A DNA stretch of 64,000 bases from Rhodoferax sp. (GTDB lineage Bacteria > Pseudomonadota > Gammaproteobacteria > Burkholderiales > Burkholderiaceae_C). The stretch covers positions 34,771 through 98,770 of the forward strand of contig VMTC01000047.1 in the NCBI GenBank assembly GCA_013791765.1, given 5' to 3'. Position 1 is the first letter of the stretch, and each line of letters begins with the position of its first letter. Of this stretch, positions 3,983 to 53,665 are shown in pieces. The notes under the pieces were generated by a model. That model was not told the origin of the DNA, did not search any database, and saw nothing but the letters and a program-made list of their open reading frames with translations. Made by a program: the position numbers and the translations under genes.

Positions 3983-3984
3983 GC

Positions 3985-8054: not shown

Positions 8055-8172
8055 GAAGGGGCTCCGGTTCAGAGCAGTGTCTCCAATTGGCATGTCAATG
8101 TAAATCGCCAGTTGTGCCGTCTTTTTGGTAAAAAACTGCCATTTAGTCAGAGAAAATTGACATAATGACGAC
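8055..8172. promoter_or_regulatory. Divergent control region, ocd-rocF versus Lrp-type gene
   Basis: This 118-base AT-rich region separates the divergent starts and must carry both promoters. TTGACATAATG close to the regulator start resembles promoter elements but lies too near the ATG to be certain. No single clear palindrome is visible, which is usual for Lrp/AsnC sites. Confidence 0.55.
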
Positions 8173-8598: not shown

Positions 8599-8608
8599 TT
8601 GGGCTCAA

Positions 8609-9028: not shown

Positions 9029-9345
9029 GAGAAATCAATCTCGCGCGGATGCACATCCAAGCCGATGCCGTCAGCTGCTTGCTTGGATAGTTGATTGGGC
9101 TCTTTCGGGATGGCCAGCAAGTGCTCGATCAAGTTCGCGGCCCGAGGCGAAGGGCTGGTTGCGCTGCGCTGCAAAGCCTCAAAATCATGCTCAGACACCA
9201 CCACCACCGCCTGCTTGCCGCGCCGCGTGACATGTTGCGGCACGCCGCGCATGGCCTGATCGACCAGCGCGCTAAATTGCGACTTGGCATCTTGCAGGCG
9301 CCACGTCGGCGCCGCTGCCTGAGACTGTAGGGGTTGTCTATTCAT
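9025..9345 (-). CDS. Phd/YefM-family antitoxin
   Basis: A 106-residue protein with the Phd/YefM N-terminal DNA-binding pattern (WRLQDAKSQFSALVDQAMRG, then TRRGKQAVVVVSEHDF). The C-terminal part should wrap around the toxin. The ATG at 9345 is preferred over a TTG one codon upstream. The gene overlaps the toxin start by four bases. Two 8-bp palindromes directly upstream are probable autoregulatory operator sites. Confidence 0.88.
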   Translation of the reverse strand: MNRQPLQSQAAAPTWRLQDAKSQFSALVDQAMRGVPQHVTRRGKQAVVVVSEHDFEALQRSATSPSPRAANLIEHLLAIPKEPNQLSKQAADGIGLDVHPREIDFS

Positions 9346-9347
9346 CA

Positions 9348-9368
9348 AACTAGTTTAACTGACTAGTC
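9348..9368. promoter_or_regulatory. Paired palindromes, likely toxin-antitoxin operator
   Basis: AACTAGTT (9348-9355) and GACTAGTC (9361-9368) are perfect 8-bp palindromes with centres 13 bp apart, immediately upstream of the antitoxin start. Phd/YefM antitoxins commonly bind such paired palindromes to repress their own operon. Confidence 0.65.
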
Positions 9369-9417
9369 TAATCTCTGAGGTACGCCGCGTGACAGCCGCA
9401 AAGAAACTATTTAATTA

Positions 9418-9453
9418 ATATCTGTACGCGCTTATATGACGAGGGCTACCGGC
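9418..9453 (-). repeat. 36-nt dispersed repeat core, copy 3 (intergenic)
   Basis: On the minus strand this reads GCCGGTAGCCC at the start and ACAGATAT at the end, 36 nt, with the flanking AAATCA seen in other copies. It lies just downstream of the acyltransferase stop. Confidence 0.7.
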
Positions 9454-9470
9454 TGATTTGTCATAAATTT

Positions 9471-10298
9471 TCAGAGTTCCTGGCGCGGCTGCTTGTAGCG
9501 TGCGTAGCCCCACAGGTACTGCTGCGGGCAGGCGCGAATCAGCGACTCCAGCGCGGCATTGATGGCCCGCACCGCCTGCGCGTTCTCTAGCGGCAAAGCG
9601 GCGGGCAAGGGCTGCACATGCACCCGGTAACCCCGGCCCCAGGGCAAGCGTTCGCCCCAGGCCATCAGCACGGTCGCGCCGGTCTGCTGCGCCAACCGTG
9701 CCGACAAAGTCATGGTGTAGGCGTCCCGGCCAAAAAAGGGCGCCCACACGCCCATGCCCATCGGCGGCACCTGGTCCGGCAGCAAAGCCAGTGATTGGCT
9801 TTTTTTGAGTGCCTTGATCATCTGCTTGACACCGGCCAGCGTGGTCGGCGCCGTGGCCAGGCCGGGGCGCGCGCGTGCCGTGCTCACCAGTTGCCGCAGC
9901 CAGGCTTGACGCGGCGGACGAAACAGCACGGTCAACGGCTGCACCTGACCGTAGCGCTGCGCATAGGCCTGGGCGGCGACCTCAAAGCAACCCAGGTGCG
10001 GCGTCAAGAACAGCACGCCGCGCCTCAGCGCCAGCGCTTCTTCAACATGCTGCGCACCGACCCATTGCACCGGCACCGGCCGGCCCAGCCACAGGCGCGG
10101 CAGCTCGGCTACCAGCTTGCCGCTCTCTCCTACAGCGCCCCGCCATTGCCGCCACACCAGGCCCGCCTGACGCGCGTTCGCCAGAAAACGCCCGCGATAA
10201 ACCCCCGAGAGCGCGAACACCAGCCAACCCAAACTCCAGCCCACGGCGTGCAATAGCCACAGCGGCAGGGTGGACAGGGTCTTGAAGAGGGTGCTCAT
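9471..10298 (-). CDS. Lipid A biosynthesis lauroyl/myristoyl acyltransferase family
   Basis: A 275-residue LpxL/HtrB-type membrane-associated acyltransferase. The catalytic H-x4-E motif is visible in TPHLGCFE, after an N-terminal hydrophobic segment. These enzymes transfer a secondary acyl chain from acyl-ACP to Kdo2-lipid IVA at the inner membrane. It is divergent from metK, a common arrangement in related genomes. Whether it is the lauroyl or myristoyl enzyme cannot be decided here. Confidence 0.88.
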   Translation of the reverse strand: MSTLFKTLSTLPLWLLHAVGWSLGWLVFALSGVYRGRFLANARQAGLVWRQWRGAVGESGKLVAELPRLWLGRPVPVQWVGAQHVEEALALRRGVLFLTPHLGCFEVAAQAYAQRYGQVQPLTVLFRPPRQAWLRQLVSTARARPGLATAPTTLAGVKQMIKALKKSQSLALLPDQVPPMGMGVWAPFFGRDAYTMTLSARLAQQTGATVLMAWGERLPWGRGYRVHVQPLPAALPLENAQAVRAINAALESLIRACPQQYLWGYARYKQPRQEL

Positions 10299-10489
10299 GG
10301 GTCGGATAAACTACGCCGGTCGCTGAGTTACAGAACTACTTGCAGGGCGACACACAAAGGCGGTTTGCAAAGAGCTGCCATTGTGCCTTGTCAATCATTT
10401 GACGAATCTGCTAAAGCGTTCGCCGAAAGCCCGAAAAGCCCAAGCAACGCGAACTTTGTTGTTTTACTTTTCAATTGGAGCTTTCCACC

Positions 10490-11671
<1,182 letters not shown>

Positions 11672-13536: not shown

Positions 13537-13689
13537 AGCATGGCCCCCACGCTTGTCGCTTCGCGTACTGCGCTGCCCCCCGAGGGGGCTGTTTCGCCTT
13601 GGGGCGGCCCGGCGTCGAAACGGGTTCCCCCGCTCGTCACCGCCGGCATTGCGCTTCCCCCACGACCCCAATAACCCCGAGGTGTTCTC
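13537..13689. repeat. GC-rich repeat with terminator-like hairpin between pilT and pilU
   Basis: The spacer contains a perfect hairpin, GCCCCC-CGA-GGGGGC (13575-13589) followed by TGTTT, then a TTGGGGCGGCCCGGCG block. I recognise this combination as a common intergenic repeat in Comamonadaceae. It could act as an attenuator between pilT and pilU. Confidence 0.6.
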
Positions 13690-39539: not shown

Positions 39540-41348
39540 ATGCTCGCAAATTGCATCACATCAAGAATCCCAGCAGACACCGCGCCGCAGCTGCAGCGCC
39601 TGCTGGTCCATTACCAGCATGATCCGCACGCGCTCTTGCAGATTTTGCGCGAGTGGCAGGGCTCGCAAGGCTGGTTGTCACCCGATGCGATGAGCCAGAT
39701 CGCCAGCGCACTCGGCCTGACGCTGGCGCAGGTCCAAGGTGTGGCCGGGTTTTACCGCTTCTTGCACACCCAGCCGGTTGGTGTCTACCGCGTGCTGTTC
39801 AGTGACAACGTGACCGACCGCATGCTCGGAGCAGAGGCGCTGCTGGTCGACCTGTGCCAGCGCCTGGGCGTGCTGCCCGGCCAAGTCAGCTCGGACGGGC
39901 TGGTCAGCGTGGACCTGGCCTCTTGCACCGGGCTGTGCGATCAAGGCCCCGCCTTGTTGATCAACCACACCCAAGTCATCACCCGGCTTGACGCCGCCCG
40001 TGTCGCCGAGATGGCCAAACTGATCCTGGCCCGCGTGCCGGTGGCGCAATGGCCGCCTGAGTGGTTCGAGGTGCAGGACAACATCCGCCGCGCCGATCTG
40101 CTGCTGGGTAACTCTTGCGCGCCGGGGGCTGCATTGGCTGCGGCGCTGGCGCGCGGGGCGGACGCGACGCTGGCAGAGATCAAACAATCCAATTTACGCG
40201 GGCGTGGCGGCGCCGGTTTTGCCACTGGCCGCAAGTTGGAGCTGTGCCGCCAAGCCCTGGGCGCGGAGCATGTGGTGGTGTGCAACGCCGACGAAGGCGA
40301 GCCCGGCACCTTCAAGGACCGTGTGCTCCTGACCCGCCGCGCCGACACCATGTTCGAGGGCATGACGATCGCGGCCCAAGTGCTTGGCGCGCGCCGCGGC
40401 TTGGTCTACCTGCGCGGTGAATACCGCTACCTGATGGAATCCCTGCAGGCGGTGTTGCAGCGCAGGCGCGAGCAGCAGTTGCTGGGCGCCAACATCCTGG
40501 GTCATCACGGTTTTGACTTTGACATTGCCATTCACGTCGGTGCAGGTGCCTATGTCTGCGGCGAGGAGTCGGCGCTGATCGAATCGCTCGAGGGCAAGCG
40601 CGGCGCGCCGCGCATCCGCCCGCCGTTTCCAGCCGAACACGGCTACCTGGGCCACCCCACCGTGGTCTACAACGTGGAGACTTTTTGCGCCGTGGCCCAT
40701 ATTGCGCAGCACGGCGGCGCGGCCTGGGCGGCCATCGGCACCGCCAAATCAACCGGCACCAAGATTCACTCGGTATCGGGAGACTGCGAACGCCCGGGAC
40801 TGTATGAGTACCCGCTGGGCACCCGCGTCAGTCAGATACTGGCGGACTGCGGCGCCCGCAACACGCAGGCGGTACAGATCGGGGGACCCTCGGGTGTGTG
40901 CCTGGCATCCGATGAGTTTGAGCGCCGCATCGCCTTTGAAGACGTGCCCACGGCAGGTGCCTTCATGGTGTTTGACCGCTCGCGCGACATGTTCGAGGTG
41001 GCGCGTGGCTTTGCGCATTTTTTTGCGCACGAGAGCTGCGGCTTTTGCACCCCATGCCGGGTCGGCACCGCCTTGCTGGTCAAGCGCATGGACAAGCTGG
41101 CCGCCGGCCGCGGGTCAAACGATGACCTTGATGTGTTGTTTGAACTCGATCGCCTGCTGCACAGCACCACCCACTGTGGTCTGGGCGCCAGCGCCTGCAA
41201 CCCCTTGCGCGACACCGTCTTGAAGTTCCGCCCGGCCTATGAAAAGCGGTTGCAGTCGCTTAAGTTTGAGCCCGGTTTTGACCTGGACGCCGAGTTGTCG
41301 ATTGCCCGGCACATGACCGGGCGCGACGACGCGGGCGCGCATTTGTGA
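39540..41348 (+). CDS. hoxF: NAD-reducing hydrogenase diaphorase subunit HoxF (HoxE-HoxF fusion)
   Basis: A 602-residue fusion of a NuoE-like domain (residues about 15-165) and a NuoF-like domain. The FMN/NADH site is intact (RGRGGAGFATG, CNADEGEPGTFKDR), as is the 4Fe-4S site (ESCGFCTPCRVG and a later THCGLGA). It transfers electrons from the hydrogenase module to NAD. In the NuoE-like part the first cysteine pair is missing (FSDNVTDRML) and only C-x3-C (SCTGLC) remains, so its 2Fe-2S cluster is doubtful. It is separated from hoxU by 5 kb of foreign genes instead of being adjacent. Confidence 0.93.
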   Translation: MLANCITSRIPADTAPQLQRLLVHYQHDPHALLQILREWQGSQGWLSPDAMSQIASALGLTLAQVQGVAGFYRFLHTQPVGVYRVLFSDNVTDRMLGAEALLVDLCQRLGVLPGQVSSDGLVSVDLASCTGLCDQGPALLINHTQVITRLDAARVAEMAKLILARVPVAQWPPEWFEVQDNIRRADLLLGNSCAPGAALAAALARGADATLAEIKQSNLRGRGGAGFATGRKLELCRQALGAEHVVVCNADEGEPGTFKDRVLLTRRADTMFEGMTIAAQVLGARRGLVYLRGEYRYLMESLQAVLQRRREQQLLGANILGHHGFDFDIAIHVGAGAYVCGEESALIESLEGKRGAPRIRPPFPAEHGYLGHPTVVYNVETFCAVAHIAQHGGAAWAAIGTAKSTGTKIHSVSGDCERPGLYEYPLGTRVSQILADCGARNTQAVQIGGPSGVCLASDEFERRIAFEDVPTAGAFMVFDRSRDMFEVARGFAHFFAHESCGFCTPCRVGTALLVKRMDKLAAGRGSNDDLDVLFELDRLLHSTTHCGLGASACNPLRDTVLKFRPAYEKRLQSLKFEPGFDLDAELSIARHMTGRDDAGAHL

Positions 41349-41625
41349 AGCCAGGCGCAGCCGGCCATTGAGGCCCCATTAGGGAAAGTACGACTCTTGA
41401 GGACGCCTTTTTGGCGCCACACTTGGCCCCATGCCGTTGAATTTCTCACCTTTTCAAAATCTGTCGAATTTAGTCAGTGGTCGGGTGCCTTTTTTTGTGG
41501 TGTGGGCAAGTTCACCGCAGGCGTGTGACCAAATATTCGCGGCAATTTTTGATACAAGTGGCCCATCTAAACCGCGGTAGGCTGCAATCGATGATGTGTG
41601 TTGCTCTTTTCAAAGGAGGTGAAAC
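41349..41625. other. Junction region downstream of hoxF
   Basis: No gene is seen. The first 40 bases (AAGCCAGGCGCAGCC onward) can be aligned with gaps to the interior of hoxU near 46404, which would parallel the clearer hoxH/hoxW case; this is weak. The right end carries a near-perfect ribosome site (AAAGGAGGTGAAAC) for the chemoreceptor. Confidence 0.4.
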
Positions 41626-43179
41626 GTGTTGAACCTGAACTCCATGAGCATTGCTCGCCGGTTGTCCGTGCTGATTGCCAGTGCGGTGCTGGGTATCGTT
41701 GTTTTGGCCACTGTTTTTCTGGTGTCGGAGCGTTCGCTGGTAATGCAGGAGCGCCAAACCGCCGTCCAACAAACCGTAGAACTCGCGCATGGCGTGCTGG
41801 CGCATTTCCAAACGCTGGCGGTGCAGGGCAAGATGTCGCAAGACGATGCCAAGCAGCAAGCCATGGAGGCTATTCGCGGTTTGCGGTACAGCCAGACCGA
41901 GTACTTCTGGATCAATGACATGCACCCCAAAATGGTCATGCATCCGATTAAACCGGAGTTGCAAGGCAAGGACTTATCACAATTCAAAAGCGCTGACGGT
42001 CAGTTGCTTTACAACGACTTTGTTGCCATGGTCAAGGCCAACGGTGCTGGCTTTGTACCTTACTTGTGGCCCAAACCCGGCACAACTGATTCGGTGATGA
42101 AAGTCTCCTACGTCAAGGGCTTTGAGCCCTGGGGTTGGGTCATCGGCTCGGGTGTGTACGTTGACAACGTCGATGCCGCCGTGTTGAACCGGGCGGCAGG
42201 TTTTGCCGCTGGTACCTTACTGTTGGTGGCCATTTTGTTGGGCATTGGTCTGGTCATCGCGCGTGGTATTTTGCGCCAGCTCGGTGGTGAACCTGACTAC
42301 GCGACTGGCATCACGCGGCGCATGGCTGATGGTGACTTGGCGGTGCAGATCGACCTGAAACCCAACGACCAGCGCAGCTTGCTGTACGCCATCAGTGCCA
42401 TGCGCGACCGCATTGCCGGCATTGTCAGTCAGGTACGTGTTGGCTCTGAAGGGGTGGCTACGGCCAGTGCCGAAATTGCCCAAGGCAACAATGATTTATC
42501 GGCCCGAACCGAAAGCCAGGCGAGTGCGCTGGAGCAAACGGCGGCTTCCATGGAGCAGCTCAGTGCCACGGTACGGCAAAACGCCGACAGCGCCGCGCAG
42601 GCCAGCCAGATGGCCGTGAACGCCAGCAGCGTGGCAGTGCAAGGTGGTGCGGTGGTGGGCCAGGTCGTGGGCACCATGAAAGGCATCAATGATGCGTCGC
42701 GCAAGATCAGCGACATCATCAGCGTCATAGATGGCATCGCCTTTCAGACCAACATCCTGGCGCTCAATGCCGCGGTGGAAGCGGCGCGTGCCGGTGAGCA
42801 GGGGCGGGGTTTTGCCGTGGTGGCCTCTGAAGTGCGCAGCCTGGCCGGGCGCAGCGCTGAAGCTGCCAAAGAGATCAAAGCCTTGATCAATGCCAGCGTG
42901 GAGCGTGTTGAACAAGGCACCGCGTTGGTGGATCAAGCCGGTGCCACCATGACCGAAGTCGTCAGCAGCATCGCGCGTGTGGCCGGTATTGTGGGTGAAA
43001 TCAGTGCGGCCAGTCGTGAGCAAAGCGCGGGCGTGTCGCAAGTGGGCGAGGCGGTTACGCAAATGGATCAGGTCACCCAGCAAAATGCGGCGCTGGTGGA
43101 AGAAATGGCCGCAGCCGCCAGCAGCCTGTCCACCCAGGCGCATGAGCTGGTGCAGGCAGTTGCTGTCTTCAAACTGTAA
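41626..43179 (+). CDS. Methyl-accepting chemotaxis protein with single Cache domain
   Basis: A 517-residue chemoreceptor. TM1 is near residues 12-33 and a periplasmic sCache_2 sensor ([15 protein letters not shown] to [14 protein letters not shown]) spans about 35-185. TM2 is near 190-212, followed by HAMP-like sequence and a signalling domain with the conserved hairpin ([20 protein letters not shown]). No C-terminal CheR-tethering pentapeptide is seen. The start is GTG with a strong ribosome site. It lies inside the split hox operon and may sense a small organic acid or a redox-related signal; the ligand is not readable. Confidence 0.92.
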
Positions 43180-43198
43180 TTTATCCCTCCACTGGGCG

Positions 43199-43378
43199 AC
43201 CAAGGGCGCTCTCATTGCGGCGCGGCGCATCTTCCGGTGCGGGGTGAATCACAGTCTGCAGACCGATTGCCCCAGTTCTGCCAAGGCAGACCCCACCAGC
43301 TTGCGCCTGGTCACTCGCAATCAACGCGATTTCGAGCTGCCTGGGCTGGAAGTCATCAACCCCTGGAACTCGAATTAA
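43199..43378 (+). pseudogene. Remnant of a PIN-domain (VapC-type) toxin gene
   Basis: The last 25 codons before the TAA at 43376 read LRLVTRNQRDFELPGLEVIN followed by PWNSN, the characteristic C-terminus of VapC/FitB toxins. Further upstream in the same frame GALIAA resembles the DALIAATA segment, but the spacing is too long and no start or earlier acidic residues exist. The secure part is 43301-43378. It abuts the group II intron. Confidence 0.7.
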
Positions 43379-43417
43379 TGAAGTTTGCTTGGGTCAGATG
43401 CCGACTAATTGAAATTT

Positions 43418-44090
43418 GAGCGCGCCAGCACAAACTGGCAAGTCGTAGTCGGTGAAAGTCCGATGCGAGAAAGGAGTAGCGAACCATCTTGATCCCCGAG
43501 TCATGCGTCGGCAACCGTGAGGCGGCAGGCGAAGCGTTGACAGGGGCACCGGCAGGCCAGCCATTGAGCCGCGAAATCAATTGTTCGGGATGCCGACGCT
43601 GTTCAGATAAGCGCAAGGCAACATGGTGTATGGCGTTATTCGCAAGCCATGCACCGATCCTGCGCGGTCGGAGACCCTGAGCATGCCGGGAAGCTACTTG
43701 CGCAGGAGCTGGGAGGGCTCATCAGTACCCGGGGTATTTGCCGGGTGGGGCGGGGAAGTGAAACCGTACGCCCGCCATCGACGCTGGTGAGAAGTCAGAT
43801 ACGCTCGTAGTACCGAAGAAGCTGCCGAACAAGGGGAAGCCTGCGGAGGTGGTGGAGGGAAGGGGCGTAGCGACGGGGAGTGCTGACGGGAAGCCCGCCT
43901 GCCGGACATAGAGCCGGGTAAGTGCGTCGATGTGACCTGAAGGCATACGTTGGAGTGTTGTCGGCACGTACTTCGGTATGTGCTACAGCGCACCAGCGTC
44001 ATTATCACCCGTGGCAGGAGCCGTATGCGGTAGTTCCGCACGTACGGATCTGTGCGGGCGGCGGCGGGTAACCGTCGTCCCTACCGCGAT
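43418..44090 (+). mobile_element. Group II intron without an intron-encoded protein
   Basis: Domain V is clear at 44018-44050: GAGCCGTATGCGG, a short loop, and CCGCACGTACGGATC, with the catalytic AGC and the two-base bulge. Domain VI follows, with GGCGGCGG pairing to CCGTCGTC around a GTAA tetraloop, and a bulged A at 44083, seven bases before the proposed 3' end GCGAT. The 5' end is placed at GAGCG (43418, near the GUGYG consensus), followed by GCGCCAGCACAAACTGGC and GGTGAAAGTCCGATGCGAG, typical of domain I. Where the maturase ORF normally sits there is only a hairpin, GCACGTAC-TTCG-GTATGTGC (43964-43983). Splicing would need a protein supplied in trans. Boundaries are approximate. Confidence 0.8.
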
Positions 44091-44430
44091 CCCTCATTAC
44101 CTTATTTTGTATATAGAGCTGTACGAAGCCGAAGTTAAAGTGACAACGTCAGTTTTCACCGAGCTGGCGCTGCCCCAAGCAAGGCCCGTCCCAGCCATCA
44201 CCGAGCATTTTCACCAGCCCACCAAAGCCTGCCCTGCCACCCCGAACGCACCCTGCTGTCGGTCTTGCTCGCAGGCTGCACGGGCAGGCCACGCCACAAT
44301 TTCAAGCGTCAAGCGGCTGGCATGGCAAAGCCCTGCTGATCTGTTTTTCGGTGTCGGATGTCTTTACAACTGATCACAAAACTAGCTGCTCGAAACTCGT
44401 AACTACCTGTCAATGTTGGGTTTTTTTGGC
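44091..44430. other. Region between group II intron and PEP-CTERM gene
   Basis: No supported gene. An open frame from 43978 to 44373 starts inside the intron and has no coding character. The right-hand part probably holds activator sites for the sigma-54 promoter at 44431, but I cannot define them. Confidence 0.5.
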
Positions 44431-44447
44431 TTGGCATCCTTTTTGCA
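44431..44447 (+). promoter_or_regulatory. Sigma-54 promoter of the PEP-CTERM gene
   Basis: TTGGCATCCTTTTTGCA matches the -24/-12 consensus with GG (44433-44434) and GC (44445-44446) exactly ten bases apart. It is followed by a leader of about 80 bases before the ATG at 44539. PEP-CTERM genes in floc-forming betaproteobacteria are known to be under RpoN and the PrsK/PrsR two-component system. Confidence 0.8.
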
Positions 44448-44538
44448 TATTGGACGCTGACTTAGCCAATGTACTAAGTTAAATCGTGTTCCAGCTGAAC
44501 ATCGATAACTTCAGTCAACGTTTTCAAGGGGTACTGCT

Positions 44539-45273
44539 ATGCGATCTATGACACAAAAATTGGTGCGGACTGGTTTACTCAGTGCGCTGCTTGCAGCGTC
44601 TTCAGCCTCCTGGGCTGCGGCCACGGTTTACTTTGGCGAGGACCTCGGGCTTGGCGAGGGGACGGCGCTGGCGGCGTTCCCGAATGCCAGCGCTGCCGGA
44701 GCCAGCTTTTTGGCGGCGCTGACTGGCGTCGGGACCGAGAATTTTGAATCCTATAGCGCCGGTACCGCCGCGCCGCTGGTGCTCAACTTTGCTGGCGCGG
44801 GCACGGCCACTTTGACTGGTGACGGGGCAATTTCCAGTGTGACTCCTGGCTCCACTAACGGCTTTGGCCGCTACGGCACCAGTGGCAGTAAATACTGGCA
44901 GGTGAGCAACACCTTTGGGATGATTTTTTCTGCTCCAGTGGCCGCCTTCGGCTTTTACGGCATTGATGTCGGTGACTTCAATGGTCAAGTGCAGGTCACC
45001 ACTATCAATGGCGGCTCGACGCTCTACACGGTGCCCAATTCCACAGGCGTGTCAGGCGGCGGCGTCCTGTTCTGGGGCATCATTGACAGCGCCACACCGA
45101 TCACCAGTCTGAGCTTTGGCAACACGGCGGCTGGGACTGATGTATTTGGCTTCGACGACATGACGATTGGTTCGGTGCAGCAGGTCAATCAGACGCCGGA
45201 GCCTGGCAGCCTGGCCTTGCTCGGGCTGGGTCTGGCCGGGCTGGCCGCCCTGCGCCGGCGCAAACCGGGTTGA
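44539..45273 (+). CDS. PEP-CTERM sorting-domain extracellular protein
   Basis: A 244-residue secreted protein with a signal peptide (LLSALLAASSASWAA). The body is Gly/Ser/Thr/Ala-rich, and the C-terminus is a classic PEP-CTERM sorting signal: TPEPGSLALLGLGLAGLAAL then RRRKPG. Exosortase should recognise the PEP motif and process it; no exosortase is in the window. Proteins of this kind often go into extracellular matrix or flocs. The gene is preceded by a strong sigma-54 promoter. Its body domain is not one I can name. Confidence 0.9.
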   Translation: MRSMTQKLVRTGLLSALLAASSASWAAATVYFGEDLGLGEGTALAAFPNASAAGASFLAALTGVGTENFESYSAGTAAPLVLNFAGAGTATLTGDGAISSVTPGSTNGFGRYGTSGSKYWQVSNTFGMIFSAPVAAFGFYGIDVGDFNGQVQVTTINGGSTLYTVPNSTGVSGGGVLFWGIIDSATPITSLSFGNTAAGTDVFGFDDMTIGSVQQVNQTPEPGSLALLGLGLAGLAALRRRKPG

Positions 45274-45406
45274 GGCCCCGCCGCAGGGCAGTACGTGGGT
45301 CGCAGTGGCCCGCTTGCCCAGCAGCCCGATCGGGGTGCCTTGGTTGGGTGGCGGTCTTGTCGTAATAAGCCGTGCCTGACCGTAGCAGCACGATCACGAA
45401 GGCGGG

Positions 45407-46057
45407 CTACCACTCTCGCCCAAGTCTGGGTGTTTGAACACCCTTTTGGATTCTGATGATCGGCACGGCCATGGTGATCACCTTCGGCTTTTCGTCCTTG
45501 AGCAACACGACGTTCAAGAACAAGGTGCCCAGGCCCTTTTCTGTTATTGGAAAGCCCCAGAGCCGCTTGGGTTCGAGGGCGGCACACAGCATGGCTTCAT
45601 CCCACTCGTCCGGTAGCGGCAAATAGCTGTAAGCTTGTTCGCGGTGCCGGAGCATGACATGCGTGTAGCTGTATCCCGGGATCGGTTGCCCATCTGCACC
45701 GATGGGGCGAAATTTGATTTCATAGTCGCCGGTGGCGGTATTGCCATGGGCAAAGCGGCCCGCTTTCAAGCCGGGGGCGAACTTGAAATTGGGTCTGCCA
45801 ATCACCAATGGGGAATCCATCAGGTTTCGCAGCTCAATGTTCAGAACATTCGGGTAATTTTTGTGACCGGTACCCAGGGAGTAGGTCAGGTGCACCGAAA
45901 ACTCCGGAATCTTCTTCTTCCACCGGCTCACCAGCACGCTTGATATGAGAAGGCCAGAGCCGGCGGTCACAAAGTCCCACAGTCCCTGGTCCTTGGCCCA
46001 CTTGATCCACGTTAGCGGAGCTTGGAGCAATTCGAAAATGTCTTTGACAAGAAACAT
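45407..46057 (-). CDS. Hypothetical protein with N-terminal membrane helix
   Basis: A 216-residue protein I do not recognise. An N-terminal segment (LWDFVTAGSGLLISSVLVS, about residues 26-44) could span the membrane, followed by a beta-rich soluble part (FSVHLTYSLGTGHKNYPNVL). It is on the strand opposite to the hox genes and lies within the first block that splits the operon. Its codon use appears less GC-biased than its neighbours, consistent with acquisition. Confidence 0.65.
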   Translation of the reverse strand: MFLVKDIFELLQAPLTWIKWAKDQGLWDFVTAGSGLLISSVLVSRWKKKIPEFSVHLTYSLGTGHKNYPNVLNIELRNLMDSPLVIGRPNFKFAPGLKAGRFAHGNTATGDYEIKFRPIGADGQPIPGYSYTHVMLRHREQAYSYLPLPDEWDEAMLCAALEPKRLWGFPITEKGLGTLFLNVVLLKDEKPKVITMAVPIIRIQKGVQTPRLGREW

Positions 46058-46265
46058 GAGTAATCAGACCAGTCGATGGGAATGACAGCTGGAAAAGTGC
46101 CACAGGGCCCCAAATGTAACCGTCCAGCCATGCGCCGGACCAAGTGCAAGTCGGTTTGCAGCACGCCCATGGCGCGGTGCAGTGGCCGTGGGCGACGACT
46201 GCTGATTCACGCAATTGCCTGCATCATCTGACTTTGTCGGGTGAGATACCATAGTGGTTCCGCTT

Positions 46266-46342
46266 GACTGCTGGCAGTTCCCCTTCGGCGACGCTTGACC
46301 GGCCGCGCCGCGTTTGGCGCACATCTGGAGAACCGCACATGA
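46266..46342 (+). pseudogene. Remnant copy of the hoxF 3' end, overlapping hoxU
   Basis: Just before hoxU the frame reads LTGRAAFGAHLENRT and a stop. The C-terminus of the intact HoxF, 5 kb upstream, reads MTGRDDAGAHL and a stop. Over the eleven shared codons 23 of 33 bases match (46295-46327 against 41316-41345 plus the flank). The remnant's TGA overlaps the hoxU ATG as ATGA, the normal coupling of adjacent hox genes. Upstream of 46265 the frame is closed. Confidence 0.6.
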
Positions 46343-47070
46343 CTGACAACGTGGATGGCGCTCAGGCGCTGTCAACTTTCTCTCTCGACGGTGACGACCT
46401 GCCGTTTCAAGCCGGCGAGACACTCTTGCAGGCCGCAACTCGCGCCGGGCGCTACATTCCGCACCTGTGCTGGCACCCCGACTTTGCCGCGCATGGCTCG
46501 TGCCGGATTTGCAGCGTCAAGGTCAACGGCCGCGTCGGGGCCGCGTGCAGCGTGTTCGCCGCTGAAGGGCAGGTGGTGGAGAGCAACACCGACGAGATGA
46601 ATCGGCAGCGCAAGACGCTGTTACAAATGCTGTTTGTGGAAGGCAACCACTTTTGCCCGAGCTGCGAGAAAAGCGGCAATTGCCTGTTGCAGGCCACCGC
46701 CTACCAGATGGGCATGGAAGGCCCGCACTTCGAGGAGTTTTACCCGAGCCGTCCGGTCGATGCCAGCCACCCCGACATCCTGCTCGACCTGAACCGCTGC
46801 ATCCTGTGCGAGCTGTGCGTGCGCGCCAGCCGCGAGGTCGATGGCAAAAACATCTTCGCCATCGGCGGCCATGGCATCGACACGCACCTGCTGGTCAACA
46901 GCGCCAGCGGCCAGTTGGGCGACACCGCCATGAGCCTGGAGGACCGCGCGGCCCATATCTGCCCGGTGGGCGCGATCCTGCCCAAGCGACGCGGCTTTGT
47001 GATCCCGATCGGGCAGCGGCGTTTTGACGCCAAGCCGGTGTCGCAGCAAGTCGAAGGAGCGCCAGAATGA
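46339..47070 (+). CDS. hoxU: NAD-reducing hydrogenase subunit HoxU
   Basis: A 243-residue NuoG-like iron-sulfur protein. It has an N-terminal 2Fe-2S ferredoxin domain (CWHPDFAAHGSCRICSVKVN), a His-Cys3 4Fe-4S site (NHFCPSCEKSGNC) and a further 4Fe-4S ferredoxin region (CILCELCVRA, HICPVG). It links the HoxYH hydrogenase to HoxF. The ATG at 46339 follows CTGGAG and lies in the end of the hoxF remnant. It overlaps hoxY by four bases. Confidence 0.93.
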   Translation: MTDNVDGAQALSTFSLDGDDLPFQAGETLLQAATRAGRYIPHLCWHPDFAAHGSCRICSVKVNGRVGAACSVFAAEGQVVESNTDEMNRQRKTLLQMLFVEGNHFCPSCEKSGNCLLQATAYQMGMEGPHFEEFYPSRPVDASHPDILLDLNRCILCELCVRASREVDGKNIFAIGGHGIDTHLLVNSASGQLGDTAMSLEDRAAHICPVGAILPKRRGFVIPIGQRRFDAKPVSQQVEGAPE

Positions 47071-47633
47071 CCGCCCCTGCCACGCCGCCAGCGCCGCGCA
47101 AACTCAAGGTCGCCACCGTGTCGCTGGCGGGCTGCTTTGGCTGCCACATGTCCTTGCTGGACATTGACGAGCGGCTGTTCGATCTGCTCGAACTGGTTGA
47201 GTTTGACCGCTCGCCACTGACCGACATCAAGCAGGTGGGTGCCTGCGACATCGGCCTGATCGAAGGCGGTCTGTGCAATGCCGAGAATGTGCAGGTGCTG
47301 CGCGAGTTCCGCGCGCACTGCAAGATGCTGGTGGCCGTGGGCGCCTGCGCCATCAACGGCGGCTTGCCGGCGCAGCGCAACTATCTGGACCTGGGCGAGG
47401 TGTTGACGCAGGTGTACCGTAAGCGGCCGGGCCTGAGCGCGGGCGGCGCCATTCCCAATGACCCCGAGTTGCCGCTGCTGCTGAACAAGGTGCACCCGAT
47501 CCGCGAGGTGGTGCACGTGGATTACTCGCTACCGGGTTGCCCGCCCTCGGCGGACACTTTCTGGCAGTTCCTCACCGACCTGATGGCCGGGCGCACGCCG
47601 CATCTGGGGCACGGCCTGATCCACTTTGACTGA
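47067..47633 (+). CDS. hoxY: NAD-reducing hydrogenase small subunit HoxY
   Basis: A 188-residue small subunit carrying the proximal 4Fe-4S cluster: C23 and C26 in GCFGCHMSL, a later Cys in VGACAINGG, and PGCPPSADTFW. There is no Tat signal, consistent with a cytoplasmic group 3 enzyme. It is coupled to hoxU by overlap and followed by hoxH after 12 bases. Confidence 0.95.
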   Translation: MTAPATPPAPRKLKVATVSLAGCFGCHMSLLDIDERLFDLLELVEFDRSPLTDIKQVGACDIGLIEGGLCNAENVQVLREFRAHCKMLVAVGACAINGGLPAQRNYLDLGEVLTQVYRKRPGLSAGGAIPNDPELPLLLNKVHPIREVVHVDYSLPGCPPSADTFWQFLTDLMAGRTPHLGHGLIHFD

Positions 47634-47645
47634 GGGGGCCAGATC

Positions 47646-49154
47646 ATGACTAAATCACTCGAAACTGCGGCTCCTGAGCTTGTGGCGCAAGGCCTGCGCC
47701 GGGTCGCGATCGACCCGATGTCACGCGTTGAAGGCCACGGCAAGGTCACGCTCTTGCTGGACGCGCAGAACCGCGTGCAGCAGGTGCGCCTGCACATCGT
47801 GGAGTTCCGCGGCTTTGAGCAGTTCATTCAGGGCCGACCCTACTGGGAGGTGCCGGTGATGGTGCAGCGCTTGTGCGGCATCTGCCCGGTGTCGCACCAC
47901 CTGGCGGCGTCCAAGGCCTTCGACCGGGTGGTCGGGGCGATGCCGGTCACGCCCACGGCCGACAAGATTCGCCGCCTGATGCACTACGGTCAGGTGATGC
48001 AGTCGCACGCCTTGCACTTCTTCTACCTCGCCGCGCCCGATCTGCTGTTTGGTTTCGACTCCGACCTGAACCGGCGCAACATCGTCGGCGTGGCGCAAGC
48101 CCATCCTGACATCGCGCGCAAAGGCGTGCTGCTGCGCAAGTTCGGCCAGGAGGTGATCCGCGCCACCGCCGGCAAGCGCGTGCATGGCACTGGCTCGGTG
48201 CCGGGCGGTGTCAACAAGCACGTCAGTCCGGCCGACCGGGCCCTGCTTGCGCGCGACGTGGCGCAAATGCTCGCGTGGGCGCAAGAGGCTGTGGCGATTG
48301 CCAAACAACTGCATGCGCAGAACCCGGCGCTGTACAACACATTTGGCAGCTTTCGCTCCAACCTGCTGTCGCTGGTGCGCTTGGATGGCGCGCTGGACCT
48401 GTACGACGGCGTGCTGCGCGCGCGCGACACCGCAGGTAGCATGCTGTTCGACGGTGCCAGTGACCAGGACTATCTGGGCTTGATTGAAGAAGAAGTCAAA
48501 CCCTGGACCTACATGAAGTTTCCGTTTCTCAAGAGCCTGGGGCCCGATCTCGGCTGGTACCGGGTCGGGCCGCTGGCGCGGCTGCAGAACTGCGACTTCA
48601 TCCCGAGCCCCCTGGCTGAAATAGAGCGCCGTGAATTCGTCGCCTGGGGTCGCGGTGCGCCAGTGCAAGCCACGCTGGCCTACCACTGGGCGCGCATGGT
48701 CGAGATGCTGCATTGCGTCGAGGTGATCCAGACGCTGCTGGACGATCCCGACATCCTGGGCGGCGAACTGATGGCGAGTGGGCCGCGCCAGCGCAGCGGC
48801 GTCGGCGTGATCGAGGCGCCGCGCGGCACGCTGTTTCACCATTACGAGGTGGGCGACGACGACCTTGTGACGATGTGCAACCTGATTGTTTCGACCACCC
48901 ACAACAACCAGGCCATGAACGAGGCGGTGCGCTCGGTGGCGCGCGAGTACCTGGACGGGCGCGAGTTGACCGAAGGCCTACTCAACCACATCGAAGTCGC
49001 CATTCGTGCCTATGACCCCTGCCTGTCCTGTGCCACCCATGCGATCGGGCAGATGCCGCTGGAGGTGACGCTGCTCGGGCTTGATGGCGAGCTGATCGAC
49101 CGTGTGCTCAAGTCGGGAACGGGCGAGTTCCGCCGTGACTTGGGGGCGGACTAG
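47646..49154 (+). CDS. hoxH: NAD-reducing hydrogenase large subunit HoxH
   Basis: A 502-residue [NiFe] catalytic subunit. The N-terminal nickel ligands are C77 and C80 in RLCGICPVSHH and the C-terminal pair is C459 and C462 in DPCLSCATH. HoxW should cut after H465 and release a 37-residue tail, longer than the roughly two dozen residues I expect for this group. The last residues (GAD, stop) and the next bases match the interior of hoxW, so the gene end looks like a fusion produced by a deletion. The hoxW gene is 3.9 kb away rather than adjacent. Confidence 0.95.
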   Translation: MTKSLETAAPELVAQGLRRVAIDPMSRVEGHGKVTLLLDAQNRVQQVRLHIVEFRGFEQFIQGRPYWEVPVMVQRLCGICPVSHHLAASKAFDRVVGAMPVTPTADKIRRLMHYGQVMQSHALHFFYLAAPDLLFGFDSDLNRRNIVGVAQAHPDIARKGVLLRKFGQEVIRATAGKRVHGTGSVPGGVNKHVSPADRALLARDVAQMLAWAQEAVAIAKQLHAQNPALYNTFGSFRSNLLSLVRLDGALDLYDGVLRARDTAGSMLFDGASDQDYLGLIEEEVKPWTYMKFPFLKSLGPDLGWYRVGPLARLQNCDFIPSPLAEIERREFVAWGRGAPVQATLAYHWARMVEMLHCVEVIQTLLDDPDILGGELMASGPRQRSGVGVIEAPRGTLFHHYEVGDDDLVTMCNLIVSTTHNNQAMNEAVRSVAREYLDGRELTEGLLNHIEVAIRAYDPCLSCATHAIGQMPLEVTLLGLDGELIDRVLKSGTGEFRRDLGAD

Positions 49155-49173
49155 CTCGACGATTGCCAGTTGC
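49148..49173 (+). pseudogene. hoxW-derived fragment fused to the hoxH 3' end
   Basis: Bases 49148-49173 (GGACTAGCTCGACGATTGCC onward) match 53215-53240 inside hoxW at 23 of 26 positions. The match includes the last codon and stop of hoxH. It implies that a complete hoxH-hoxW junction once existed here and lost about 150 bases. Confidence 0.6.
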
Positions 49174-49347
49174 CCTGACGCACATCAAAAAGTGCGGGTT
49201 CAGCTGGTAACACCGACACCCATGCCCCCTGCCCGACCACAAAACATGCTGGGTCGCCCGACCACAAGTTGTACACTTTGCGGAATTTCACCAACTTTGG
49301 TGCCAGCCAACACCAAAGTGGCATAAGCAGCTATCAAAATTTATGCC
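49155..49347. promoter_or_regulatory. Control region upstream of the GGDEF-EAL gene
   Basis: GCCCGACCACAA occurs twice as a direct repeat (about 49227 and 49251). A perfect 9-bp inverted repeat, ACTTTGGTG (49294-49302) and CACCAAAGT (49311-49319), follows, 30 bases before the start codon. The inverted repeat overlaps a dispersed-repeat copy. Either could be an operator or a leader hairpin. Confidence 0.5.
49299..49334 (+). repeat. 36-nt dispersed repeat core, copy 10 (leader of GGDEF-EAL gene)
   Basis: The right half (GCATAAGCAGCTAT) is conserved, the left half (GGTGCCAGCC) is partly conserved, and the length is exactly 36 nt. About 20 of 36 bases match the 63.9 kb copy. Confidence 0.55.
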
Positions 49348-52300
49348 ATGAAGAGCGATGCAAAGGGAGAATTTTCCCCCTGGCACTCGATTAAAACCCG
49401 GGTGACGCTGCTCACATTGGGCATCTTCATCGCGAGCCTGACCGCGCTGACGTTCTACGCCAGCCGCCTGGTGCAAGACCACCTTCAGAAGCTTCTGGGC
49501 GAGCACGAGTTCGAGACGGCTTCCATGGTGGCTGCCGATATCGACGCCGAGGTGCAAAGCCGACTGGACGGGCTTGAGTTGATTGCCAGAACGCTGGCCG
49601 CCAACCTGCCGCAGGGCGCAGCCGTCACGCAGCACACGCTCGAAAACCTACCGCGTTTTCAGACCTTTTTTAACGCTGGCGGTTATGTGACCGGGCCAAA
49701 CGGCACAGTCATTGCGTCTGTCCCCGCTTCGCTGGGCCGTGTCGGCGTGAACTACATGGACCGGGATCACGTCGTGGCCGCGCTAAAGGGGGGTAAATCG
49801 ACGGTCGGCAAGCCGGAGCTTGGCAAGTTGCTGAATGCGCCCGTGGTCTCCCTGGCAGCGCCCATTCGAGATCCGCAGGGCAAGGTCATTGGGGCCATTG
49901 TGGGTGTCATCGACTTGGGAAAACCCAATTTTCTGGACAAGGTCACCCAGGGTGCTTTCAACAAAACGGGGGTCGTGTCAATTATTGCGCCGCAGTACCG
50001 TGTGACGGTCACGTCGTCTGACAGGCGGCTGGTTTTGTTTGCGTTGCCCGCACCGGGTGTCAACCCGTATCTTGATCGAAACATCGCTGGCTTTGAGGGC
50101 TCCACCGTTCTGGTCAACGTGCTGGGTCAGGAACAGCTAGCCTCGGTCAAGCGGATTCCCGCCGCGCAGTGGTACCTGTTTTCAGGGCAGCCCACCGAAT
50201 CGGTGTTTGCCCCGGTACGCGCCTTGCAGCAGCGCATGCTTTGGGCCTTGATATTTTTGAGTTTGTTGGCTGGCACGCTGACTTGGTGGCTGTTGCGGCA
50301 TCAGCTTGCACCCGTCTTTGACACGGCACGCAAGTTGGTCGTTCTGGCTGAATCTGATGAAATTCCACCGCCTTTGCCGATCACCCGCCAGGATGAGATT
50401 GGTGAACTGGTTGGTGCCTTTAACCATCTGCTGCAAACCTTGGGTCAGCGCGATGCCGCGTTAAAAGACAGCCAGCAAAACCTGGCCATCACACTCAATT
50501 CGATTGGTGATGCGGTGGTTGCCACCGACACCGCTGGCCGCATCACGCGCATGAACCCCACCGCCGTGCGCTTGACGGCCTGGCCGTTGGCCGACGCGCT
50601 GGGTCAGCCCCTGACCGAGGTGTTTCGCATTGTCAACGCCCAGACGCGGCTGCCGGTGGTCAATCCGGTGGAGCTGGTGATGGCGCGCGGTCAGGTGGTG
50701 GGCCTGGCCAACCACACCGTGCTGCTGGCGCGTGATGGTCGTGAGTACCAAATTGCCGACAGTGCGGCACCCATCCGCAATGCGTCTGATCAGGTCGTTG
50801 GGGTCGTGCTGGTGTTCAGCGATGTAACCGAGAAATACCTGGCCGAAGTAGCCCTGAAAGAGAGCGAACAGAGATTTCGCGCACTCTACGAAAAGGCACC
50901 GTTGCCATACCAGTCGTTAGACATCGAGGGAAACATCCTTGAAGTCAACGAAGCTTGGCTTGCGCTTCTGGGCTACACCCGCGAAGAAGTCATGGGCCAA
51001 TTCATTGGTGATTTCCTGACCGATGCCTCAGCTGAAACGCTCAAGTGTGAGTTCCCTCGTTTCAAGACACGGGGCATTGTCGACGGCCCGGAATTTGATC
51101 TTAGCTGCAAAAATGGCACACACAAACGGATTGCGATCAATGGACGGATCGCGCGCGACAGTCAGGGCAATTTTCAACGCACCCACTGCATCCTCACCGA
51201 CATCACCGAACGCCAACAAGCCCAGGCCAGGCTGCAACTGGCGGCCAGTGTTTTTGAACATGCCGGTGAAGGCATCCTCATCACCGACACGCAGGGCACC
51301 ATAGTTGATGTCAACGCCGCTTTCACCCGCATCACCGGCTACAGCCGCGAGCAAGCCATTGGCCAAAATCCGCGTATTCTGAAGTCCGGGCGGCAAGATA
51401 AGGCGTTCTATGAAACCATGTGGCAAGATTTGACAGAACAGGGGCACTGGAGTGGCGAAATCTGGAACCGCCACCAGGACGGCGCGGTGTACGCCGAGTT
51501 GCTCACCATCAGCGCTTTGCGCGACGCTGCTGGCGACGTGCAGCAATACGTGGGCTTGTTCTCCGACATTACAGCGATCAAGAGCCACCAAAGCCAGTTG
51601 GAGCACCTGGCCCACTTTGATGCGCTGACCAACCTGCCCAACCGGGTGCTTTTGGCAGACCGGTTGCAACAGGCCATGGCGCAGGCGCAGCGGCGGCAGC
51701 AGCAAGTGGCTGTGGTCTACCTGGATCTGGACGGTTTCAAGGACATCAACGACTGCCATGGCCACGATTCTGGCGACCAGATGCTCATCATGCTGGCCGA
51801 TCGCATGAAAGAAGTGCTGCGTGAGGGCGACACGCTGGCGCGCTTTGGGGGCGACGAGTTTGTGGCGGTGCTGATCGACCTGGAAACCTCGGCAGACTGC
51901 CTGCCGCTGGTCAATCGGCTGTTGACGGCCGCCGCACAGCCAAGGCAGGTGGATGGGCTCAATTTGCAGGTCTCGGCCAGCATCGGTGTCACCTTCTTCC
52001 CGCAGGCGCAAGCCATCGACGCTGAACAACTTTTACGCCAGGCCGACCAGGCCATGTACCAGGCCAAAGTGGCGGGCAAAAACCGCTACCAGATTTTCGA
52101 TGCGGAGCACGACAGCAACATCCGTGAACACCATGAAAGCCTGGAACGCCTTCGCCTGGCACTGCTGCACCACGAGTTCGTGCTGTACTACCAGCCCAAG
52201 GTCAACATGCACAGCGGCCAGGTGATGGGTGCCGAGGCACTGATCCGCTGGCAGCACCCGCAAAAGGGTCTGCTGGCGCCTGCGGCCTTCTTGCCCGTGA

Positions 52301-52950
52301 TCGAAGACCACCCGCTGGCCGTTGACGTGGGTGAGTGGGTGATTGACACCGCCCTGCAGCAGATGGCGCAATGGCACGCCGTCGGCCTGGACCTGCCGGT
52401 GAGCGTCAACATTGGCGCACGCCAATTGCAGCAAGCTGACTTTGTGGAGCGCCTGCAATCCATCCTGGCAAAGCACCCGCAAGTGCGACCAGACTTCATT
52501 GAGCTGGAAATACTGGAAACCAGTGCGTTGTCCGATATGGCGCAGGTCTTGCGAGTGATAGACGCCTGCGCCCAGATTGGCGTGAAGTTTGCGCTGGACG
52601 ACTTTGGCACCGGCTATTCGTCACTCACCTACCTCAAGCGCCTGCGCGTGGCAACGCTCAAGATTGACCAGAGCTTTGTGCGCGACATGCTTGACGACCC
52701 GGATGATCTGACGATTTTGCAAGGCGTGATCAGCCTGGCCGCGGCCTTCAAGCGCGAGGTGATTGCTGAAGGTGTGGAAACCGTGGCGCACGGCACCGCG
52801 CTGCTGCAACTGGGCTGTGAACTGGCGCAAGGCTATGGCATTGCCCGGCCCATGCCAGCCGATAGGGTGCCCGCCTGGGCGGCAAGCTGGCGGCCCGACG
52901 CGGCGTGGTGTGTGCCAAGGGGCCAGGCCCCGCAGCGCAACATTTCTTGA
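49348..52950 (+). CDS. Membrane sensor Cache-HAMP-PAS-GGDEF-EAL c-di-GMP protein
   Basis: A 1200-residue sensor. TM1 is near residues 12-32, a periplasmic double-Cache sensor spans about 40-290, and TM2 is near 295-315. HAMP lies around 315-370 and is followed by three PAS domains (about 375-480, 510-620, 630-755). The GGDEF domain has an intact signature (RFGGDEFVAV, near residues 834-838). The EAL domain has an intact EALIRW (near 962) and DDFGTGYSSL. It could both make and break c-di-GMP. It occupies the second block splitting the hox operon and points the same way as hoxH and hoxW. Confidence 0.93.
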   Translation: MKSDAKGEFSPWHSIKTRVTLLTLGIFIASLTALTFYASRLVQDHLQKLLGEHEFETASMVAADIDAEVQSRLDGLELIARTLAANLPQGAAVTQHTLENLPRFQTFFNAGGYVTGPNGTVIASVPASLGRVGVNYMDRDHVVAALKGGKSTVGKPELGKLLNAPVVSLAAPIRDPQGKVIGAIVGVIDLGKPNFLDKVTQGAFNKTGVVSIIAPQYRVTVTSSDRRLVLFALPAPGVNPYLDRNIAGFEGSTVLVNVLGQEQLASVKRIPAAQWYLFSGQPTESVFAPVRALQQRMLWALIFLSLLAGTLTWWLLRHQLAPVFDTARKLVVLAESDEIPPPLPITRQDEIGELVGAFNHLLQTLGQRDAALKDSQQNLAITLNSIGDAVVATDTAGRITRMNPTAVRLTAWPLADALGQPLTEVFRIVNAQTRLPVVNPVELVMARGQVVGLANHTVLLARDGREYQIADSAAPIRNASDQVVGVVLVFSDVTEKYLAEVALKESEQRFRALYEKAPLPYQSLDIEGNILEVNEAWLALLGYTREEVMGQFIGDFLTDASAETLKCEFPRFKTRGIVDGPEFDLSCKNGTHKRIAINGRIARDSQGNFQRTHCILTDITERQQAQARLQLAASVFEHAGEGILITDTQGTIVDVNAAFTRITGYSREQAIGQNPRILKSGRQDKAFYETMWQDLTEQGHWSGEIWNRHQDGAVYAELLTISALRDAAGDVQQYVGLFSDITAIKSHQSQLEHLAHFDALTNLPNRVLLADRLQQAMAQAQRRQQQVAVVYLDLDGFKDINDCHGHDSGDQMLIMLADRMKEVLREGDTLARFGGDEFVAVLIDLETSADCLPLVNRLLTAAAQPRQVDGLNLQVSASIGVTFFPQAQAIDAEQLLRQADQAMYQAKVAGKNRYQIFDAEHDSNIREHHESLERLRLALLHHEFVLYYQPKVNMHSGQVMGAEALIRWQHPQKGLLAPAAFLPVIEDHPLAVDVGEWVIDTALQQMAQWHAVGLDLPVSVNIGARQLQQADFVERLQSILAKHPQVRPDFIELEILETSALSDMAQVLRVIDACAQIGVKFALDDFGTGYSSLTYLKRLRVATLKIDQSFVRDMLDDPDDLTILQGVISLAAAFKREVIAEGVETVAHGTALLQLGCELAQGYGIARPMPADRVPAWAASWRPDAAWCVPRGQAPQRNIS

Positions 52951-52982
52951 TGGGCGTTCCTTGTTCGTGCGGTGTACGGTGG

Positions 52983-53087
52983 CTGCTCGGGAGCGATCTG
53001 TCCGGTGGCTTGTTCGACCGGGTCCTCAAGTCACAGACGGGCGAGTTTCGCCGTGAGCTGGACACGACGCCCGGTGCGTCGGTATGA
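52983..53087 (+). pseudogene. Remnant copy of the hoxH 3' end, overlapping hoxW
   Basis: The frame reads LLGSDLSGGLFDRVLKSQ then TGEFRRELDTTPGASV and a stop. The intact HoxH, 3.9 kb upstream, ends LLGLDGELIDRVLKSG then TGEFRRDLGAD. The identity is unmistakable at the DNA level (for example CGGGCGAGTT-CGCCGTGA in both). The TGA overlaps the hoxW ATG as ATGA. The matching part is the C-terminal extension beyond the nickel ligands, so it cannot be a functional subunit. Confidence 0.85.
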
Positions 53088-53665
53088 GGGCAAGGCCGAC
53101 ACCGGTGGCGCCGTTGCTGGTGTTTGGCTGGGGCAATCTGAGCCGGGGCGACGACGCGCTCGGCCCGCTCCTGATCGAGCGTCTGCGTGTGCTGGCCGCG
53201 CCTGGCCTGAGCGTGGACTACCTCGACGATTACCAATTGCAGATTGAGCATGCGCTCGATCTGGTGGGCAGACAGCGCGTGCTGTTTGTCGATGCCAGCC
53301 TGAGCTGCCTGGCGCCCTTCGAGGTGACGAAACTGCGCGCCGCGCCCGACAGCAGCTTCACCAGCCACGCCTTGAGCCCGCCGGCGCTGCTGCAGGTGTT
53401 CTGCAATTTGCGCAGTGAGGCACCGCCACCGTGCACGCTGCTGGCGATCCGGGGTGAGCGCTTCGAGCTCGGCGCGCCGCCCAGCGCGGCCGCGCTGGCG
53501 CATCTGGCGGCCGCGCTGGCCTGGGCGGCGGATTGGCTGGCAGCGCCAGTGGCTGAGCCCAAGCCGTGCTCAAGCAACGGCGTTGACAGTCCTCAAGCCA
53601 GCGCCACCATGCGGATGGCCACCCCGCTCAGCACCGCGTTGCCCGACAGTGGGTCGCGCACCTGA
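53084..53665 (+). CDS. hoxW: Hydrogenase maturation endopeptidase HoxW
   Basis: A 193-residue HycI/HybD-type nickel-dependent protease that trims the HoxH tail after metal insertion. The conserved GWGNLSRGDDALGPLL is at the N-terminus, and VLFVDASL carries the second conserved acidic residue. The C-terminal 25 or so residues have no family counterpart that I recognise and overlap the convergent molybdopterin oxidoreductase gene by 73 bases. It starts within the hoxH remnant, preserving the ancestral overlap. Confidence 0.9.
   Translation: MRARPTPVAPLLVFGWGNLSRGDDALGPLLIERLRVLAAPGLSVDYLDDYQLQIEHALDLVGRQRVLFVDASLSCLAPFEVTKLRAAPDSSFTSHALSPPALLQVFCNLRSEAPPPCTLLAIRGERFELGAPPSAAALAHLAAALAWAADWLAAPVAEPKPCSSNGVDSPQASATMRMATPLSTALPDSGSRT

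Follow-up and report, generated by a model that had tools for sequence, protein, structure and literature searches.

The window analysed here is a 64,000-nucleotide stretch of a draft Rhodoferax sp. genome (G000, 136 contigs; GenBank assembly GCA_013791765.1, contig VMTC01000047.1, positions 34,771 to 98,770 of the forward strand), and it carries a hox hydrogenase operon. The gene order F-U-Y-H-W is retained, with breaks at two junctions, hoxF/hoxU and hoxH/hoxW; the subunit names follow common usage in part, and HoxW was assigned by TIGR00072. Between hoxH and hoxW lies a gene whose product is Cache-HAMP-PAS-GGDEF-EAL by Pfam, with consensus GGDEF and EAL motifs. With these motifs taken in their usual meaning, the domains point to an enzyme of the cyclic di-GMP (c-di-GMP) type. 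An earlier note on this DNA, made from the letters alone, had called it a c-di-GMP sensor gene; the GGDEF and EAL domains and the Cache sensor are indeed present, and the wording was loose in that the predicted protein is of an enzyme type. The closest relative found, Rhodoferax sp. Bin2_7 (G047), whose HoxH is 95% identical to that of the window and whose DNA identity is about 90%, has no insert at this place: in its hox locus (L033), hoxH is joined to hoxW by ATGA.

The duplicated hoxH/hoxW junction

The hoxH/hoxW junction is duplicated around the GGDEF-EAL gene, as the earlier note had proposed. By blastn, window positions 46289-49144, 49145-49173 and 53011-53538 correspond to L033 4513-7359, 7509-7537 and 7308-7835, respectively, and the target sequence flanks the insert as a direct repeat. 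The left flank consists of L033 7308-7359 followed by 7509-7537, with the 149 bases in between (7360-7508) gone, and thus keeps 52 and 29 bases of a 230-base junction span (L033 7308-7537). Since both flanks match the single junction of G047, the junction was duplicated around the inserted gene and its left copy decayed. The comparison with an insert-free relative, at which the earlier note saw its proposal as open to refutation, came out in its favour, for the one junction of G047 matches both remnants.

Both matches also withstood shuffling. Local alignment of 49093-49138 with 53011-53056 scored 52, against a maximum of 32 over 2000 dinucleotide shuffles, and that of 49131-49173 with 53199-53240 scored 38, against a maximum of 28 over 2000 shuffles. 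Between 49148-49173 and 53215-53240, 23 of the 26 positions agree, exactly as first counted. Additionally, we built a HoxH-tail profile from the C-terminal extensions of 93 loci, with the window excluded, and searched it against 1995 frames of the window. Its two best matches were hoxH (E 1.3e-17) and a frame that ends at 53084 (E 2.5e-6); the next one had an E value of only 0.44. Alignment and profile together corroborate a downstream hoxH-tail copy, in frame and overlapping hoxW by ATGA (53084-53087). This remnant had been placed at 52983-53087; blastn supports it from 53011, and the extension to about 52978-52983 is indicated only by GCTGCTCGGG and the in-frame reading LLGSDLSGGLFDRV, both judged by eye.

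At the left junction, the window reads GGG GCG GAC TAG CTC GAC GAT TGC CAG TTG, which aligns to hoxW GTG GAC TAT/TAC CTC GAC GAT TAC CAG/CAA TTG. HoxH ends A-D-stop opposite V-D-Y of HoxW, with TAG in place of the Tyr codon. The deletion shifted hoxH into the hoxW frame, and the last HoxH residues and the stop are hoxW-derived; the alignment bears out the earlier suggestion that the event gave rise to the present HoxH tail. The HoxH extension past the conserved His measures 37 residues, compared with 24-46 (median 39) in 93 other loci, or 25-46 in 92 loci when the own second hox set (see below) is left out. Lying within this range, it gives no pointer to altered HoxW cleavage, and by this comparison the tail is an ordinary one.

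Table 1 Features of the interrupted hox operon (positions in the window)
Feature	Position	Strand	Remarks
hoxF	39540..41348	+	3' end about 4 codons shorter than in G047 (GAHL*); NuoF-/NuoE-type NCBIfam matches below cut-off
First insert, not in G047	41349..46288	.	chemoreceptor, PEP-CTERM protein, minus-strand open reading frame (ORF)
Cache chemoreceptor in first insert	41626-43179
PEP-CTERM protein in first insert	44539-45273
ORF without Pfam match in first insert	45407-46057	minus
hoxF-tail copy, diverged, in frame, last ~17 codons	46289..46342	+	ATGA overlap with hoxU; GGAG motif
hoxU	46339..47070	+	HoxU model, below its cut-off
hoxY	47067..47633	+	Oxidored_q6; named from gene order
hoxH	47646..49154	+	final codons and stop derived from hoxW sequence
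hoxW-interior remnant, left copy, 29 bases	49145..49173	+	149 bases of the relative's junction absent directly upstream
Spacer before inserted gene	49174..49347	+
Inserted gene, dCache-HAMP-PAS-GGDEF-EAL, 1200 aa	49348..52950	+	GGDEF, RxxD and EAL motifs present
45-codon frame, new sequence plus hoxH-tail remnant	52950..53087	+	starts in GGDEF-EAL stop (TGATG), ends in hoxW start (ATGA)
Recognisable hoxH-tail remnant, right copy	53011..53087	+
hoxW, intact, hydrogenase maturation protease	53084..53665	+	TIGR00072 above cut-off

The hoxF/hoxU junction and other hox loci

The 4.9-kb insert between hoxF and hoxU, which G047 lacks, provides a second case. By blastn, the 39 bases at L033 4513-4551 align to the window twice, once with sequence that ends at 41345 and once with sequence that starts at 46289. 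A HoxF-tail profile recovered hoxF and a 24-residue frame at 46268-46339 (E 1.6e-4), the next frame having an E value of 0.17. The 60 bases upstream of hoxU scored up to 52 against the hoxF tails of relatives, and 300 shuffles did not exceed 35. The left hoxF stops four codons early, and the right remnant retains the ATGA overlap with hoxU together with its GGAG motif. Among other loci, the hoxF stop lies inside ATGA, GTGA or TTGA in 83 of 85, and the hoxF/hoxU junction is interrupted in none of 98. The matches show the same pattern of upstream-tail duplication as at hoxH/hoxW.

We also surveyed 109 loci other than the one in the window (94 distinct; some genomes are present twice, and the own second set, L053, is included). 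hoxH and hoxW are at most 350 bases apart in 107 of them. In 62 of 95 distinct loci, the stop codon of hoxH falls within an ATGA or GTGA next to hoxW; under another rule, the two genes overlap in 53 of 88 loci (with the L162 start misplaced and L144 not placed). The second set mentioned above is a divergent hoxU-Y-H-W cluster elsewhere in the own genome (L053 3265-6469, contig C99), with a HoxH 47% identical.

Only two of the 109 loci, L144 and L162, have genes between hoxH and hoxW. L144 (Comamonadaceae CG12; 3713-4521) carries a PIN-domain gene that joins hoxW by ATGA and a small upstream partner without a Pfam match, possibly a toxin-antitoxin pair. L162 (Rhodocyclaceae GS19; 7500-10721) resembles the window in having a HAMP-PAS-GGDEF-EAL gene at this position with an ATGA overlap with hoxW; it differs in lacking a detectable duplicated junction, and the similarity is generic, 40% in GGDEF-EAL. 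Since neither a hoxH-tail remnant nor a duplicated junction was detected at L144 or L162, duplication is one way, not the sole way, for genes to come to sit between hoxH and hoxW. GGDEF matches downstream of hoxW occur in L036, L037, L039, L040, L044, L145 and L151, two of them on the opposite strand and one 8.9 kb off. A functional link between c-di-GMP and the hydrogenase is a lead only.

Origin of the inserts

We consider it probable that the GGDEF-EAL gene came in by duplicative insertion at the hoxH/hoxW overlap with later decay, like the event at hoxF/hoxU. A gene-bearing segment would have entered the overlap and left 230 or more bases, comprising the end of hoxH and the start of hoxW, in direct duplicate. 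The route may have been integration of a circle carrying that much of the junction, a tandem duplication followed by losses, or a duplicative form of repair; each of the three fits. With ATGA common to hoxH and hoxW, a non-duplicating insertion would be prone to disrupt one of the genes, and the duplication would have supplied a complete hoxH end on the left and a complete hoxW start on the right. The left copy would then have lost 149 bases, fusing hoxH to a hoxW fragment whose Tyr codon became the hoxH stop, while the right hoxH tail would have been reduced to a fragment still entering hoxW via ATGA. An event of the same kind would have taken place at hoxF/hoxU, and we infer selection as the reason why both insertions come with duplications. 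The earlier note had offered tandem duplication or single-crossover integration followed by decay, which the G047 junction and the survey of loci support; the two give an identical product and are indistinguishable here.

Campbell-type single-crossover integration leaves a duplicated homology segment flanking the cargo of the circle. The product is alike here, with the difference that neither an integrase nor a replication gene was seen among the scanned ORFs. The closest known kind appears to be insertion with long target duplication, described in Helicobacter pylori (Nobusato et al. 2000, as relayed in PMC1643837 and PMC3031569). As far as these accounts go, the likeness lies in an insert not found in a close relative and in long direct target repeats of variable length on both sides. 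The cargo differs, being of a signalling type here and frequently, though not by definition, restriction-modification there; moreover, the hox sites are gene overlaps in an operon, and two events fall in one operon. If complete copies are expected of that kind of insertion, the left hoxH/hoxW copy departs from it; its 149 missing bases are read here as later decay. In the titles and abstract openings that our literature searches returned, neither for insertions into overlapping operon genes nor for hox or hydrogenase genes with GGDEF or c-di-GMP was this arrangement found, and the entry of genes into operons with few-base overlaps seems little described in them. Two tail-duplicating insertions in one operon, together with an uninterrupted relative, allow before and after to be compared base by base, and the tail duplication at both sites suggests how tightly overlapping operons may accept new genes.

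The same visible outcome would result if an ancestral hoxH-hoxW-GGDEF-EAL block had been duplicated in tandem and had then lost hoxW from its first copy and the GGDEF-EAL gene from its second. G034, G027 and G049 do have a co-oriented GGDEF-type gene downstream of hoxW (as does G039, 2.5 kb away), but over their matched parts these genes are 38-43% identical to the inserted gene, versus 59% for its best match elsewhere in the genus and 81-83% for HoxH. In the window, moreover, hoxW is followed by a molybdopterin oxidoreductase gene and by no GGDEF-EAL gene, and we regard such a block as unlikely. Duplication of the whole operon with reciprocal loss, so that hoxF, hoxUYH and hoxW each descend from a different copy, would explain both split junctions by a single process. 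Against it, the insert DNA reached 34.0 and 31.1 bits with the own and G047 hox regions, below shuffle maxima of 41.1 and 36.8 (30 shuffles each), the best tblastn matches of Hox proteins in the inserts had E values of about 0.04-0.06, and no further hox remnants stood out, which leaves this history very improbable. Still harder to credit is chance similarity or an assembly chimera, even in a draft of 136 contigs: the copies are diverged rather than identical, the uninterrupted G047 junction explains the pieces on both flanks, and the profile and shuffle tests speak against chance.

Several observations nevertheless weigh against the duplicative insertion that we favour. With the left copy incomplete, the length of the original duplication is only a minimum. 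The event is undatable from the sequences at hand and could go back as far as the divergence from G047: along the 46 best-aligned bases, there are 8 differences between the two copies and 4 between either copy and G047. The scanned ORFs contained no mobile-element gene, and Pfam, run on the GGDEF-EAL gene and on three ORFs of the other insert, detected no transposase. No donor of the GGDEF-EAL gene was found among genomes of the genus, family and class or among plasmid records. With the 366-residue sensor part as query, the best match elsewhere in the genus was 59% identical, in a broken frame in G036; 69 of 89 genus genomes gave some match at E 1e-30. With no more than five candidates scored per genome, the own genome was the only one to match at E 1e-120 in a set of 399 genomes of the family, sampled from a larger group, and at E 1e-115 in a set of 369 genomes of the class; the 22 plasmid records matched were all below 60%. 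The spacer query (49140-49347) matched only itself in the 89 genus genomes searched, the 88 others giving nothing at E 0.001. Furthermore, a 4.7-kb insert elsewhere in the own genome, next to a pair of co-directed ORFs with 20 bases between them, shows no duplication, so not every tight junction shows one.

This last insert came from a comparison of G000 (831,721 bases) with G047 (707,626 bases), which yielded 128,285 aligned bases and 35 gaps. Of the G000 inserts of at least 60 bases, the only two with at least 12 duplicated bases are those in the hox operon; among the G047 inserts, one of 345 bases carried 18 such bases. The other large G000 inserts (e.g. 4701, 4165, 2922, 1373 and 828 bases) had no duplication, and some of them may pair non-orthologous stretches. 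Small as they are, these counts fit selection favouring duplications where genes overlap; a rough look at ORFs around eight insertion sites was too crude to place them in overlaps or not. Below the size limit, a G/C-rich palindromic element at 13545-13665, which is not in G047, shows a 42-base gap (about 13580-13623) with about 39 G047 bases matched on both sides.

Upstream of the inserted gene, at 49215-49335, we noticed by eye a repeated GCCCGACCACAA and an inverted repeat CCAACTTTGGTG/CACCAAAGTGG, possibly a regulatory site. A scan with a sigma-54 pattern was uninformative, with 59 matches versus 64 expected.

The remnant frame and the downstream end

The GGDEF-EAL stop codon shares a base with an ATG (52950) that lies in the frame of the hoxH tail (TGATG, 52948-52952), and 45 codons on, this frame runs into ATGA at 53084-53087. 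Stop/start overlaps of 1 and 4 nucleotides, as in termination-reinitiation pairs, are therefore present at both ends, and the frame is a possible translational relay from the GGDEF-EAL gene to hoxW. If the 45-codon frame is disregarded, the GGDEF-EAL stop lies 133 bases from the hoxW start. According to the available excerpts of Huber et al. (2023), reinitiation in the tested pairs requires overlaps or very short distances; at a distance of 38 nucleotides, three Escherichia coli pairs lost 80-90% of their reinitiation or all of it, and the final 15 nucleotides of the upstream gene were enough for it. The TGATG and ATGA joins are like those of termination-reinitiation in that work, as excerpted (Huber et al. 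2019, 2023); unlike there, the upstream partner of hoxW would be a hoxH fossil, itself joined to the inserted gene, and the coupling here is predicted from sequence. If the relay holds, HoxW synthesis would depend on translation of a c-di-GMP enzyme.

More broadly, overlapping operon genes may accept newcomers mainly by duplicative insertion, with the copied tail kept as a cis-acting fossil that would serve as a relay at hoxW and as a ribosome-binding site at hoxU. We offer this generalisation tentatively and think it rather doubtful as a whole; while the history of the locus is well explained, the idea for why the remnants persist is unproven. At this locus, the end of a fossil gene may have been reused as a translation signal.

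For the simpler account, that the remnant is inert, hoxW uses its own start signal and the TGATG and ATGA joins are accidents of decay, we see the scales as evenly balanced. Predicted pairing with the anti-Shine-Dalgarno sequence is moderate before hoxW (-5.3) and absent before 52950 (+1.1), so that hoxW might start on its own; Shine-Dalgarno motifs, in the excerpted text of Huber et al. (2019), are often important for reinitiation, and the relay start has none. Signs of constraint on the remnant are mixed, with amino acid changes relative to G047 in several codons and a 6-base insertion, and the hoxF remnant has a ribosome-binding motif only, with no ATG-started relay frame. In 13 codons, DRVLKSQTGEFRR, by contrast, all three differences from G047, counted by hand, are synonymous, though they may predate the duplication. 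An exact TGATG in the right open frame arose in about 2% of simulations with the local composition, which argues against an accident; yet in 16% an in-frame start of some kind arose no more than about 10 bases from the GGDEF-EAL stop, and the relay was a post hoc idea. Both other interrupted loci also join hoxW by ATGA, a further point against inert joins.

Beyond the duplicated junction, hoxW and its surroundings have changed as well. Between the window and G047, hoxW is 85.1% identical and hoxH 90.9%; a foreign origin of hoxW is not supported, as this difference falls among those of other pairs of similar HoxH distance. HoxW has 193 residues versus 156 in G047: the stop codon of G047 is missing, and the frame continues (53540-53665) across the 3' end of the molybdopterin oxidoreductase gene, which is convergent. 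The window also lacks a 1.2-kb stretch that follows hoxW in G047, where a CBS-like and an HPF-like gene (L033 7852-9090; identified by eye) stand between hoxW and the molybdopterin oxidoreductase gene. A gain of both genes in G047 is contradicted for the CBS-like gene, which has matches in eight other distinct loci (10 rows), 27-30% identical, on the minus strand and 78-105 bases past the hoxW match; the HPF-like gene was found in G047 only. The lineage of the window has probably lost the CBS-like gene, as judged from these matches, which suggests that the hoxW end of the operon was rearranged more than once.

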